Below, one piece after another: positions 60,556 through 64,000 of a DNA stretch of 64,000 bases. The translations under genes and the position numbers were made by a program. This stretch comes from Streptomyces sp. TP-A0356. Its GTDB lineage: Bacteria > Actinomycetota > Actinomycetes > Streptomycetales > Streptomycetaceae. A model generated the notes under the pieces. That model had not been told where the DNA came from. It saw only the letters and a program-made list of their open reading frames with translations, and ran no database searches. Position 1 is the stretch's first letter. Every line of letters starts with the position of its first letter. The stretch spans positions 124,001-188,000 of the forward strand of contig NZ_BBZJ01000017.1 of assembly GCF_001417775.1 (NCBI RefSeq), read 5' to 3'.

Positions 60556-61206
60556 ATGACGTACAGCGGAGCGGTGAAGGTCGGCGGCCCTGCCGACGTG
60601 CACGAGCTGCAGGACCTGATGATCACCAAGATCGCGGTCGGCCCGATGGACAACAACGCCTATCTGCTGCGCTGCCGGGCCACCGACGAGCAGTTGCTGA
60701 TCGACGCGGCCAACGACGCGCGCACCCTGCTCGGCATGATCGGCGACGACGGCATCGCCTCCGTCGTCACCACACATCGGCACGGGGACCACTGGCAGGC
60801 GCTCGCCGAGGTGGTGGCGGCCACCGGCGCGCGGACGTACGCGGGCCGGGACGACGCCGAGGGCATCCCGGTGCCGACGGACGTCCCGGTCGAGGACGGG
60901 GACACGATCCGGGTGGGTCGCGTGGAGCTCACCGCGCGCCATCTGGTGGGCCACACGCCGGGGTCGATCGCCCTCGTCTACGACGACCCGCACGGGCATC
61001 CGCACGTCTTCACCGGGGACTGCCTCTTCCCTGGCGGTCCTGGCCGGACAACACAGCCCGAGGATTTCCGCAGCTTGATGACCGGGCTCGAACAGAAGGT
61101 CTTCACTCTGCCAGACGAGACTTGGATCTACCCGGGCCACGGCAACGACACCACGCTCGGGGATGAACGGCCGCACATTGCCGCATGGTGGGCGCGCGGC
61201 TGGTAG
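60556..61206 (+). CDS. MBL-fold metallo-hydrolase with compositionally distinct 3' end
   Basis: A 216-residue glyoxalase II-like hydrolase. The metal motif is TTHRHGDHWQAL, with further ligands in HLVGHTPGSIALVYDDP, FTGDCLFPGGPGRT and IYPGHGNDTTLG. The fold is complete. The first ~154 codons end in G or C about 95% of the time, but the last ~62, from the GDCLFPGG motif at about 61020 onward, do so only about 77% of the time (14 A/T-ending codons by my count). A mobile element follows directly. The 3' end therefore looks as if it was replaced by sequence carried by the element while keeping the frame. Confidence 0.9.
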   Translation: MTYSGAVKVGGPADVHELQDLMITKIAVGPMDNNAYLLRCRATDEQLLIDAANDARTLLGMIGDDGIASVVTTHRHGDHWQALAEVVAATGARTYAGRDDAEGIPVPTDVPVEDGDTIRVGRVELTARHLVGHTPGSIALVYDDPHGHPHVFTGDCLFPGGPGRTTQPEDFRSLMTGLEQKVFTLPDETWIYPGHGNDTTLGDERPHIAAWWARGW

Positions 61207-61247
61207 ACCGCCCAGCCCCACCACCTGATTCCACGCGATCGCAAAGG

Positions 61248-61273
61248 AGCCCCCAGCCGCACGGCTGGGGGCT
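61248..61273. terminator. 11-bp perfect hairpin terminator
   Basis: AGCCCCCAGCC pairs with GGCTGGGGGCT around a GCAC loop, between the convergent MBL-fold and small HTH genes. Confidence 0.88.
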
Positions 61274-61289
61274 TCCGCCTTGTGTGCCA

Positions 61290-61508
61290 TCAGGCCGTGC
61301 CGGATTCACCGGCCTCCGAGTCTCCCGCCAGCACGATTCGGCGCACCTGTTGACGGGTGTACCCCGTCGCCTCGCAGATGTCCTTCTGCGCGACGCCGTC
61401 AGCGTCCGCCTGCCTGATCGCCGCCGCTAGCTCCTGCCGCAAGATCTCGGCCCGCGTCTCCGCTTCTCTGAAGCGCTGGGCCATCTGCGTCAGTGATCGC
61501 TTATCCAT
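61290..61508 (-). CDS. Small helix-turn-helix protein, probable repressor of the mobile element operon
   Basis: A 72-residue protein: a charged helix (RFREAETRAEILRQELAAAI) and then a helix-turn-helix of the resolvase/sigma-like type (ADGVAQKDICEATGYTRQQV followed by RRIV). The ATG at 61506-61508 is probably leaderless, with a CACTAT -10-like element just upstream inside an operator copy. It is divergent from the rightward operon starting at 61723. By position and size it is the best candidate to bind the three repeats at 61509-61606. Codon usage is less G/C-biased at third positions than core genes. No close named family is recognised. Confidence 0.75.
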   Translation of the reverse strand: MDKRSLTQMAQRFREAETRAEILRQELAAAIRQADADGVAQKDICEATGYTRQQVRRIVLAGDSEAGESGTA

Positions 61509-61606
61509 GACACATAGTGTTCCATCCGTCATCATGGAACCTGATGTTACGCAGACTGGCAGCATTGTCCAGCGTCAAACCGCTTGACGATGGAACACAA
61601 TGTTCC
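61509..61606. promoter_or_regulatory. Three-copy operator cluster (GGAACA-N3-TGTTCC type)
   Basis: Site 3 (61592-61606) GGAACACAATGTTCC is perfect. Site 2 (61536-61550) GGAACCTGATGTTAC and site 1 (61509-61523, read on the minus strand GGAACACTATGTGTC) keep the heptamer ATGGAAC and most of the second arm. Site 1 abuts the HTH start codon; site 3 lies in the rightward promoter. Confidence 0.85.
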
Positions 61607-61613
61607 CTAGAGT
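61584..61613 (+). promoter_or_regulatory. Rightward promoter of the element operon with operator in its spacer
   Basis: TTGACG (61584-61589) and TAGAGT (61608-61613) are separated by 18 bp, and the spacer is occupied by operator site 3. Transcription would start about 100 nt upstream of the first gene (61723). Confidence 0.7.
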
Positions 61614-61722
61614 GGAGTTGTCGACAGGGGAACCAGCCGACAACGCAAGCGGCCCCCGACCCGGGCTCTCACACACCGGTTCAGGGGCCTGACGGAACAA
61701 CCTGACGCAACAGGAGTCCGCT

Positions 61723-62196
61723 GTGCTCAACCTTCTCATGTCCCCCCCCCGCAGGGTCCGCACGGTCCGCGGCCTGATCGGGACCCTCGTCGAGTCGGCC
61801 GCTGACGCGGTCCGCTCTCTCGCCGCACCGGTCGAGGAGACGGAGGCCCCGGACCCGGCCGGCCTGTACGAGCCGGAAGAGATGCCCGACACCGACGTGA
61901 TCGAGGCCGCTGCCGCCGCGTTCGAGCGTGCCGCGGACCAGGCCCGCCGCGCCGACAGGTCGAAGCGCGCCGCCCGCAAGGTCCTCGACCGGCTGCCCGC
62001 CGGCCTGTACGGCCGCTTCCGGATCTTCCGCACCCCGTCCTCGCGCCAGACGCCCGACCTGGCCGCCATCACCGCCACCTACAAGCGGCTCAACCTCGGC
62101 CCCGTGCCGATGAAGCCGTGCGCGCCGTCGCTGAAGGTCGAGCAGGTCGAGTCCGAGTCCGCCCACACCGCCGCGTCCGCGGCCGTCACGGTCTGA
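61723..62196 (+). CDS. Element protein of unknown function, charged helical
   Basis: A 157-residue protein with an N-terminal helix (VRGLIGTLVESAADAVRSLA), an acidic linker (VEETEAPDPAGLYEPEEMPD) and a basic helical block (RRADRSKRAARKVLDRLPAG) before a C-terminal FRTPSSRQTPDLAAITATYK segment. No catalytic or membrane motif is visible. The GTG (61723) has an AGGAG ribosome site. A run of nine C at 61742-61750 lies in the 8th-10th codons. It begins the rightward operon. I do not recognise a named family, though similar proteins are frequent on actinomycete integrative elements. Confidence 0.7.
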   Translation: MLNLLMSPPRRVRTVRGLIGTLVESAADAVRSLAAPVEETEAPDPAGLYEPEEMPDTDVIEAAAAAFERAADQARRADRSKRAARKVLDRLPAGLYGRFRIFRTPSSRQTPDLAAITATYKRLNLGPVPMKPCAPSLKVEQVESESAHTAASAAVTV

Positions 62197-62210: not shown

Positions 62211-62660
62211 ATGACGAACAAGACCACCGCCGTGTCCGCGGAGCGTTCCGTGAGCCTGGTCCTCGAGGCCGAGGTGATGATGGACGCCGACACCGGCATG
62301 CTGTCGCTGGTTGCCAGCACCGACCACCACATGGCCGACTTCGGCGAGGTCTGCCCGGCCCGTCTGCGGCGGATGGTCGCCGAGGCCCGCGCCAAGCTCG
62401 ACGAGTTCGAGCGGCTGGCCGACGAGTACGAGGCTATCGACACGCTGCGCGCAATCCTCGCCGAGCATGATCTGAGCCTGATCGAGGCGCCCCTGGACAA
62501 GCTGGCGGACGTCAACGACGACCTCGCCGACCGGCTGGCCTGCTGGGTCATGGAGACCCCCGGCGGCCACGGTTACGTGATCGTCCCTCAGGAACAGGGC
62601 CCCATCGAGCGGCTGCAGACCGTTTCCGCGTTCATCGCCGGCCGGGAGCGTGCGGCGTGA
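62211..62660 (+). CDS. Element protein of unknown function, acidic
   Basis: A 149-residue soluble, acidic protein (SLVLEAEVMMDADTGMLSLV; RRMVAEARAKLDEFERLADE; YEAIDTLRAILAEHDLSLIE). The long central helix could pair with a partner. The ATG at 62211 has GGGGTG upstream; a GTG three codons earlier is possible. It lies 14 nt after the preceding gene and its 3' end overlaps the next small gene by 11 nt. No family recognised. Confidence 0.7.
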   Translation: MTNKTTAVSAERSVSLVLEAEVMMDADTGMLSLVASTDHHMADFGEVCPARLRRMVAEARAKLDEFERLADEYEAIDTLRAILAEHDLSLIEAPLDKLADVNDDLADRLACWVMETPGGHGYVIVPQEQGPIERLQTVSAFIAGRERAA

Positions 62661-62820: not shown

Positions 62821-62979
62821 CCGAGCCACGACACCCCCTGTACGGGGCCGCCGCCGCCCGTCCCCGCCTTGCTGGCCGCGCTGATCGATGCCGTCGACCA
62901 GCGGGACCGAGAGGGCATCTGTCTTGCCGCGCACCTGGTGGTGCGGGCCGCCGCCCCAAAGGAGTTGGGCGAACGATGA
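62817..62979 (+). pseudogene. Small element gene interrupted by a +1 frameshift
   Basis: A GTG coupled to the previous stop gives MTEPRHPLYGAAAA; the natural continuation VPALLAALIDAVDQRDREGI and CLAAHLVVRAAAPKELGER lies in the next frame after one extra C at about 62857-62859 in GCCGCCGCCC. The second frame ends in a TGA that overlaps the ATG of the following gene (ATGA). Without the extra C a 53-residue protein results. It may be a real mutation, programmed slippage at the GC-rich run, or a sequencing error. Confidence 0.6.
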
Positions 62980-64000
62980 ACACCAACGACATGACCACCG
63001 GGCCCCGTGCCCGGCTTACCAGGGGCCAGGCCTGGATCCTGGCCGCCGCCACGCTCCCGATGATCGGAGGGGGCGTGGCCGGTGCCGTCGGCACGTACAG
63101 CAACATCACGTCCGTCTTCCACCGGTCGGCGACCGCGCTGGGTGTCGTCGCCGCCGGCGAGGGCGCCACCCTCGTCCTGGCCCTCGTCCTGGTCGGCCTC
63201 ACGATGCTCGGGCAGACCGCCCCGGCGCCTGTCCGCCTCGGGCTGTGGCTGCTGCCGGCGTCCGCGTCCATCACAGGGGCGATCGTCGCCCCGCATCCGA
63301 CGGACGCTGTCATCTTCGCCGTCACCCCCTTGGCGATGACCGTGAGCGCCGAGGGCCTCGGTTTGCTGGCCCGCCGCATCGTCGTGCACCGCACGGGCGT
63401 CGACATGGAGGCGCAGCGGCGGAACGCGGAGACGGTTCAGCGGCTCGCCTACCACCGGGCCCGTGCCGCGAACCACCCGAGCAAGGGCGCCCGCTGGCGC
63501 TCAGAGCGGGCGTCGTGGCGACTCGCGAAGCGGGTCGGCGTCGGAGATGCGGAGCTGGGCGCGCGTCTGGTGGAGGTGCAGCGCGACCGTCTGTGCGACG
63601 GAGCCGACGCCGCCCTGGCCGACATGTTCGGCGTGACCGCCGGGCTGGAGTTGCCCGCGGCCGGCGGCGGAGAGGATGACCGGAACAGTGAGCCGGTCAC
63701 CGAGCCTGCGGCCGTCGAGCCGGGCGAGGTGACCGTCGAGCGGGCCGACGACGACCAGCCGCCCGCCGTCCCGGCGGCGCTCGAGGTGGTCATCCCGCCC
63801 GTGGGGGAGCTGGCTGCCGTTCCGTTTCGCTGGGAGGACGTGGAGGGGGCCGAGTGGCCCGCCAAGGTGACCACTGCCGTCGCTGCGGAAGTGCCGCGGC
63901 AGGTCATCACGGAGACGGTCACGCTGACCCCGGTGGAGTTGCGGCGGCAGGCGCGCCGACTCAACCGGCAGGCGCTCGCCGAGACCAGTCGCCCGGTGAC
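62976..64000 (+). CDS. Multi-TM element protein (conjugal spread/Spd-like), 3' end outside window
   Basis: At least 341 residues are visible. After a short charged N-terminus come four hydrophobic segments: GQAWILAAATLPMIGGGVAG, the VVAAGEGATLVLALVLVGLT region, LGLWLLPASASITGAIVAP and AVIFAVTPLAMTVSAEGLGL. A basic cytosolic domain follows (RRNAETVQRLAYHRARAANH; GARWRSERASWRLAKRVGVG), then an acidic linker and another basic helix near the edge (ELRRQARRLNRQALAETSRP). This plan fits SpdB/DUF2637-like proteins on actinomycete conjugative elements that help intramycelial spread. The ATG overlaps the frameshifted gene's stop. It is cut by the right edge. Confidence 0.75.
   Translation, partial: MNTNDMTTGPRARLTRGQAWILAAATLPMIGGGVAGAVGTYSNITSVFHRSATALGVVAAGEGATLVLALVLVGLTMLGQTAPAPVRLGLWLLPASASITGAIVAPHPTDAVIFAVTPLAMTVSAEGLGLLARRIVVHRTGVDMEAQRRNAETVQRLAYHRARAANHPSKGARWRSERASWRLAKRVGVGDAELGARLVEVQRDRLCDGADAALADMFGVTAGLELPAAGGGEDDRNSEPVTEPAAVEPGEVTVERADDDQPPAVPAALEVVIPPVGELAAVPFRWEDVEGAEWPAKVTTAVAAEVPRQVITETVTLTPVELRRQARRLNRQALAETSRPV

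Follow-up and report, generated by a model that had tools for sequence, protein, structure and literature searches.

A candidate dyad operator and a small helix-turn-helix protein proposed to repress the transfer operon of an AICE-like element in Streptomyces

A small helix-turn-helix (HTH) gene and an operon diverge from positions 61509-61613 of the window, by which we mean the whole 64-kb stretch of DNA analysed here (positions 124001-188000 of contig C17, in an 8.4-Mb Streptomyces genome). Three similar short sequences lie at this divergence. Which protein recognises them, and does it hold the operon off, turn it on or switch it between two states?

Dyad sites and promoters at the divergence

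A sequence-only reading had described three ATGGAAC-N-TGTT repeats between the HTH gene and the operon. Three copies are present in 61509-61613, with the HTH gene flanking them leftward and the operon rightward, but the repeated unit is a 15-bp dyad, GGAACA-N3-TGTTCC. Rewritten in the manner of the earlier unit, the dyad becomes ATGGAAC-N4-TGTT, and site A then lies on the strand opposite to sites B and C. The literal form with a one-base gap was dropped, as its spacing is wrong and it gave five matches at two or fewer mismatches against 2.89 expected. The sites and promoters are listed below.

61592-61606: site C, perfect dyad (12/12), GGAACACAATGTTCC, inside the spacer of the operon promoter
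61536-61550: site B, dyad 10/12, GGAACCTGATGTTAC on the plus strand, overlapping the HTH -10 and abutting the HTH start codon
61509-61523: site A, dyad 10/12, GGAACACTATGTGTC on the minus strand, within the probable 81-aa coding frame
61584-61613, plus strand: operon promoter from the consensus scan, TTGACG (61584-61589), 18-bp spacer, TAGAGT (61608-61613)
61544-61571, minus strand: putative HTH gene promoter from the consensus scan, TGGACA (61571-61566), 16 bp, TAACAT (61549-61544)

Five positions in the 64-kb window score at least 10/12 against the dyad, and three of these have starts within 84 bp (61509-61606). Sixty windows simulated with a first-order Markov model held 1.35 such matches on average, and one of the 60 had even two within 98 bp. 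Because the motif was taken from the perfect copy, site C, conservation in relatives is a stronger test than this chance count. The perfect dyad occurs once in the whole window genome, at site C. With up to one mismatch it occurs at 12 places against 19 for a reversed control; an imperfect dyad thus does not discriminate by itself, and the perfect one alone does.

The HTH-protein genome scan yielded 19 named loci, the closest relatives being from Streptomyces, and 17 of the 19 carry the sites. The other two (L022 and L025) have no such sites, and both are without the usual N-terminus. The 17 loci, the window, a further genome (G160) and 7 of 10 IMG/VR loci make 26 distinct loci; 25 were collected via the HTH protein, and G160 was found by both pattern and protein search. 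Dropped before this count were L022 and L025, as HTH relatives without sites, and L066, where no start region was found. Repeats were dropped as well (L004/L005 of L022/L023, L057/L060 of L017/L016, and L030-L043 where they repeated loci), and G160 was kept.

Site C scores 12/12 in 25 of the 26 loci and 11/12 in the remaining one. Its half-sites are near invariant (1.76-2.0 bits per position) and its central 3 bp are variable (0.66-1.29 bits). Site B scores 11/12 in 1 locus, 10/12 in 19, 9/12 in 2 and 8/12 in 4; site A scores 11/12 in 9, 10/12 in 8, 9/12 in 4, 8/12 in 2 and 6/12 in 3. Judged by these comparisons, the three sites are real and under constraint. Since A falls to 8/12 or below in 5/26 loci and B to 8/12 in 4/26, the full triplet is not required, and C is the one site that is.

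Among 392 sampled Streptomyces genomes, the combined promoter-operator pattern occurred in 7 and its reversed control in 0. An HTH profile search, which scored in each genome the 14 best candidates of a first look, gave 13 genomes at E 0.001 or better. The 7 at E ≤ 5.4e-42, those with a close and full-length HTH gene, were exactly the pattern's 7, at the same place. Among the remaining six, G085 (E 1.6e-34) is without the N-terminus and the pattern, and the others match weakly (E 1.3e-7 at best). One of the 7 is the window genome, five appear to repeat named loci and G160 alone is new; the independent gain of this test is one genome and the negatives. PLSDB plasmids and phages gave distant protein matches only (four Rhodococcus plasmids and one Micromonospora phage). 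The two of these that were examined, L050 and L056, have no dyad above 9/12, and in the weak HTH relatives L006 and L045-L049 the best dyad anywhere scores 8-10 of 12. A scan of IMG/VR by the operator and -10 alone returned at least 120 stretches and was judged uninformative.

A host regulator such as LexA, instead of the element's HTH protein, might recognise the dyads, which are similar to the Streptomyces SOS box in their GAAC...GTTC halves. A passage of PMC9380542 gives the SOS box consensus as tCGAAC-N4-GNNCGa, whereas site C in all 26 loci has five bases between GAAC and GTTC and a flanking G, not C. We rejected identity with the SOS box on this spacing and flank of site C. The single perfect dyad in the window genome and the restriction of the promoter-operator pattern, across the 392 genomes, to those with the HTH gene argue against LexA as well. 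We therefore regard recognition by a host regulator as very improbable.

The consensus promoter scan of 61150-61800 found three promoter-like sites against a shuffle mean of 0.0 and recovered both promoters independently; the third site (61507-61535, plus strand) plays no part in the account proposed here. The earlier claim that one copy occupies the TTGACG/TAGAGT spacer holds, as 61592-61606 fits within the 18-bp spacer. Over the 19 loci from outside IMG/VR, this spacer is 18 bp in 15/19 and 17 bp in 4/19, and the C-to-B distance is 56 bp in 15/19 and 57 bp in 4/19. The HTH -10, TAACNT, is invariant in 26/26 loci. Site B and the operon -35 are separated by 33 bp in 11 of 19 loci and by 34 bp in 8, and this DNA has a mean pairwise identity of 49% (83 equal-length pairs; 27% shuffled) against 89% at B and 92% at C. 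In the counterparts of this interval (61551-61583), a CTAG stands near the HTH -35 at a nearly constant position in many loci, and the window's group has CCAGCG or a CATGG-like sequence in its place.

An operator exactly between -35 and -10 might also serve an activator, which would remodel or bend the spacer DNA at C in the manner of MerR and turn the operon on. MerR-type promoters have their operator in this position and a spacer of 19-20 bp. Here the spacer, at 17-18 bp in 19/19 loci, is already optimal, which favours repression, and a protein of 81 residues leaves scant room for an effector domain. Activation at C is very unlikely.

The regulator gene and its product

The size and start of the regulator decide how sites A and B are placed, and two frames have to be compared.

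61290-61535, minus strand: HTH regulator gene, probable 81-aa frame, stop included, from the ORF list and a start conserved in 26 loci
61290-61508, minus strand: 72-aa HTH frame of the sequence-only reading

If translation begins at 61535, the 72-aa ORF gains nine residues in frame (MMTDGTLCV). The equivalent codon is ATG in 24 of the 26 loci and GTG in 2, and it is in frame in all of them. The interval between the two candidate starts is a multiple of three without a stop in 26/26 loci (27 nt in 22, 42 nt in 3 and 63 nt in 1). The old start, equivalent to 61508, is GTG in two loci (L024 and L061). With the 61535 start in frame throughout, the regulator probably begins there and has 81 residues, not 72.

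Because of this start, site B would overlap the regulator's own promoter and start, and A would lie within its coding region. The earlier proposal of a copy at a leaderless HTH start is thus kept for B, which overlaps the -10 and abuts the 61535 start, and given up for A, which would fall in coding sequence. Since the TAACNT -10 ends 8 nt upstream of 61535, the HTH mRNA may be leaderless or nearly so, with a gap that is slightly long for this.

Site A includes the codons ACA, GGA and CTA, which are found in 26/26, 21/26 and 14/26 loci, respectively. In uvrA and uvrC the same codons make up 1/106 (Thr), 11/135 and 0/149 of their synonymous sets. The retention of the rare ACA and GGA suggests that the DNA here is constrained by more than the protein it encodes, although some loci have a degraded A. 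These codons bear on a simpler explanation, in which C is the sole operator and there is no autoregulation, A being N-terminal coding sequence and B a promoter with a start codon. It agrees with the N-terminal extension being in frame in 26/26 loci, with the degradation of A in several loci and with the coincidence of the TAAC half of B and the -10. The GGA-ACA pair retained at A argues against it, as does the TTCC beside the start codon at B, which is kept in 22/26 loci without needing a promoter role. We consider a sole operator unlikely.

In Pfam, the 81-aa protein matches HTH_28, HTH_23, MarR_2, KORA and HTH_29 at E ≤ 0.01; none of these reaches its cut-off, and GntR is absent among them. 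The 72-aa form, queried against PHROGs, matches phrog_686, an HTH protein (E 6.1e-7). The AlphaFold2 model of the 81-aa protein has a mean pLDDT of 84.5, with a long helix at residues 12-45 and helices at 50-57 and 61-76; confidence is low over residues 1-10 (mean pLDDT 52). The segment TGY-T-RQQVRR (residues 57-66) is invariant in 20 aligned family members, barring one nearly invariant T. Foldseek with this model found nothing in the PDB at E ≤ 0.001, and the best VIA match, phage Mu C protein, has a Z of 6.6, within the range that the VIA note calls common. When PDB sequences were searched with a profile of the family, 20 matched at E ≤ 1, which we judged to be chance: 19 TAL-effector repeats (23 residues covered, E 1.5e-6 to 2.2e-5, no single stretch passing alone) and one helicase (E 0.64).

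The transfer operon and the mobile element

What the operon encodes, and on what kind of DNA it is carried, was read from the following features, some of which lie beyond the window and are given in the coordinates of L002.

61617-61644, plus strand: leader hairpin I, predicted from individual folds
61651-61689, plus strand: leader hairpin II, predicted, GGCCCC...GGGGCC, a strong stem without a U tract
61723-62196, plus strand: orf157, first operon gene, no recognised family
62211-62660, plus strand: orf149, second operon gene, no family above cut-off
62976-64000, continuing past the window end (L002 2477-3589), plus strand: gene of a 370-aa protein with hydrophobic stretches
L002 4582-6783: TraB/FtsK protein, 733 aa, PF01580 at 29.7 bits (cut-off 24), E 5.4e-7

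The 370-aa protein matches phrog_16651 (function unknown, E 8.2e-57) and no Pfam family; we take it to be SpdB-like from its position before traB. The small genes before the TraB/FtsK gene include one for a DUF6257 protein (function unknown) and an ORF with a sub-threshold match only (L002 3756-4100). When 22 loci were searched with the window's proteins, in flanks of at most 5 kb each and less in several, some of them too short to tell, 10 gave a traB-type match, 4 the 370-aa protein and 4 orf157 (L009, L010, L019 and L024).

The operon bears on the bistable-switch design that the sequence-only reading saw here. Such a toggle would call for an antagonist encoded in the operon; mutual repression between it and the HTH protein would hold two heritable states. 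Like phage immunity regions of the CI/Cro type, where a small HTH protein has several operators at divergent promoters, this locus has divergent promoters with more than one candidate operator, at a conserved C-to-B distance (56 or 57 bp). However, a single DNA-binding regulator is recognised at the divergence, unlike in those regions, and no mutual repression is evident. Between the promoter and traB, the scanned operon ORFs match no regulator family above cut-off in Pfam, NCBIfam or PHROGs; a regulator of a novel kind may be among them. The first gene, orf157, was found in just those 4 of 22 loci, some of which had too little flank to tell, and the dyad quality predicts negative feedback instead. 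A toggle is, in our judgement, very unlikely.

The operon mRNA leader (61614-61722) is conserved, with two predicted hairpins between the promoter and the first gene. In single-sequence folds, hairpin I reaches -6 kcal/mol or lower in 18/19 and hairpin II -15 kcal/mol or lower in 19/19, the row for L017 being unreliable. RNAalifold on 18 leader sequences gave 9 pairs, in one of which both partners had changed; covariation of this extent is too weak to establish the structure. Against simple shuffles, the leader fold energies have z values of -1.2 to -5.0, the window's own being -1.7. At the gathering threshold, Rfam found just a tRNA in L007 and nothing in the leader among four sources (L002, L007, L017 and L020), and the terminator scan found no terminator-like site in the window stretch. 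A role of the leader in attenuation is possible, and the hairpins suggest a further control layer outside the repressor model. The stems of hairpin I vary in sequence among loci and still pair in single folds.

61029-61157, plus strand: probable attachment region on the left, in the 3' end of the metallo-beta-lactamase-fold gene at 60556-61206 (we infer the exact crossover)

The metallo-beta-lactamase-fold gene adjoins the HTH gene, and its 3' end is duplicated 21.7 kb away (second copy at L003 2254-2450). A 44-bp direct repeat, 88.6% identical, links 61114-61157 with C17 206857-206900. From this duplication, the DNA between is read as an integrated, AICE-like element of about 21.7 kb. The element seems to have entered the coding 3' end of the hydrolase gene and brought a replacement 3' end; the original would have been displaced to the far side, where the second copy lies. 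At the right end, beside the far repeat copy, a 172-aa ORF has a serine-recombinase resolvase domain only (L003 1714-2232), and the element's integrase appears truncated. An IS21-type IstA/IstB pair lies inside the element (L002 16764-19206). Because of the integrase fragment and this pair, the copy is probably immobile, and the control circuit may be a relic in the window genome, the element looking decayed. The element also carries, opposite to the transfer operon, a gene for an NsdA-family TPR-like regulator (L002 6906-8333; NCBIfam NF053720, E 1.3e-62).

A passage of PMC3218068 lists, as AICE features, an FtsK/SpoIIIE-type transfer protein, an integrase with attachment repeats, and a replication protein (RepSA, RepAM-DUF3631 or Prim-Pol). 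The window element has the transfer protein, an att-like repeat and the 172-aa resolvase-domain ORF; no replication protein was above cut-off among its proteins scanned, the DUF3631 match of the TraB protein being 22.1 against 24 bits. The G160 relative looks intact, with 60-bp perfect repeats about 20 kb apart at tRNA-Ser(GCT) and a 502-aa tyrosine integrase, the integrase-and-repeat feature of an AICE. It also encodes a 730-aa protein, whose Toprim matches are below threshold, and a TraB-like protein, which matches FtsK at 18.5 bits, likewise below threshold. Given the tyrosine integrase of G160 and the serine-recombinase domain of the window element, one control cassette, as recognised by its sequence, is common to elements whose recombinases differ in type. 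Beyond the HTH gene, a tRNA-Arg(ACG) was seen at 0.4 to 1.8 kb in L007, L010, L013, L015, L021 and L051, and a tRNA-Lys in L024.

Proposed control and comparison with known systems

The sequence supports the earlier claims that a small HTH gene diverges from an operon on a mobile element, with candidate operators on both promoters. We think it likely that the 81-aa HTH protein is the single repressor of the transfer and spread operon of an actinomycete ICE (AICE), acting on the operon at C and on its own gene at B and A. The protein, a probable dimer, would bind the 15-bp GGAACA-N3-TGTTCC dyads. At C it would cover the spacer between -35 and -10 and exclude RNA polymerase from the operon that leads to TraB/FtsK, repressing it and not activating it. 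At B it would cover the -10 and the start of its own near-leaderless gene, and binding at A, inside its own coding region, would extend or strengthen the block at B. A perfect dyad on the target promoter and weaker dyads on the regulator's own promoter predict homeostatic negative autoregulation. If affinity follows dyad quality, the operon would be silenced first, and the regulator would then limit itself. In a resident element, transfer would be held off. On entry into a repressor-free recipient, both promoters would be free, and a burst of transfer genes could follow before repression is re-established. A precedent for this burst is the R388 network, for which a passage of PMC3937220 describes negative feedback with overshoot after conjugation.

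A wider reading is tentative, and we hold it as a whole to be possible at best. The locus might be a mobile, self-contained cassette that moves between otherwise different AICEs, one type with a serine recombinase in a protein gene and another with a tyrosine integrase in tRNA-Ser. It would combine an autorepressor from a family without a named model, a divergent promoter with three operators, one of them in the regulator's codons, and RNA-level control by the two hairpins. Conjugation would be silent, with a single pulse on entry into new mycelium.

Mobile elements whose conjugation operon is under a repressor that also regulates itself are known as a kind. Within the literature searched, the family of the regulator, its operator and the layout of the locus appear to be new: no paper on the regulator or operator was among the matches listed, most subscription papers being outside the scope of that search, and the sole match listed for the operator spellings was an unrelated human paper. 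To our knowledge, and as far as our partial sources go, silencing of AICE transfer and its release on entry are known mainly from the GntR-type KorSA and Pra of pSAM2. The present locus has a much smaller regulator and a sharply defined operator, common to elements integrating in different ways. The triggering of transfer can therefore be tested directly, with a single protein, its 15-bp site and the two promoters. The arrangement is conserved in related elements from many species and offers a possible compact repressor-promoter pair for Streptomyces genetics.

The best reading is thus an autorepressor of conjugation that would resemble the kil-kor systems of AICEs in logic, but is not GntR-type like KorSA. 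According to a passage of PMC8584621, SCO3932 of S. coelicolor, a KorSA homologue, is a GntR/HutC-family protein with a UTRA ligand domain and binds at two sites between its own gene and the pra homologue. The same passage names pra and KorSA's own promoter as the targets of KorSA and states that none was found upstream of traSA. As with KorSA and SCO3932 so described, the window regulator is an element-encoded, predicted DNA-binding protein whose putative targets are its own promoter and element functions. In contrast to that description, it has 81 aa with an HTH only, and a candidate site of its own lies on the transfer operon itself. Neither element examined (the window's and G160's) contains a GntR (KorSA-type) match above cut-off; one sub-threshold GntR match (C17:203577-203642) lies in an IS region.

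KorA of RP4/RK2 and ArdK of R388 are also small, helical HTH proteins; they repress plasmid genes, as the window regulator is proposed to repress those of its element. Weak Pfam KORA matches (E ≤ 0.01) occur in 10 of the 20 family members, and the window protein scores 18.3 bits against the TrfB/KorA family PF16509, below the cut-off of 26.7. The VIA Z values for KorA (4.5-4.8) and ArdK (4.7-5.3) are middling, in a range common to many unrelated HTH proteins. Their operator sequence differs from GGAACA-N3-TGTTCC.

A further likeness is to SpdA and SpdA2 of Streptomyces plasmids. A passage of PMC4170104 describes SpdA2 of pIJ101 as a 135-aa protein that affects segregational stability and its site, sps, as a 12-bp palindrome. 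In both cases, as far as that passage goes, a small predicted DNA-binding protein has palindromic sites inside its own coding region. Unlike SpdA2 with sps as described there, the window adds a candidate operator in the promoter spacer of a divergent operon.
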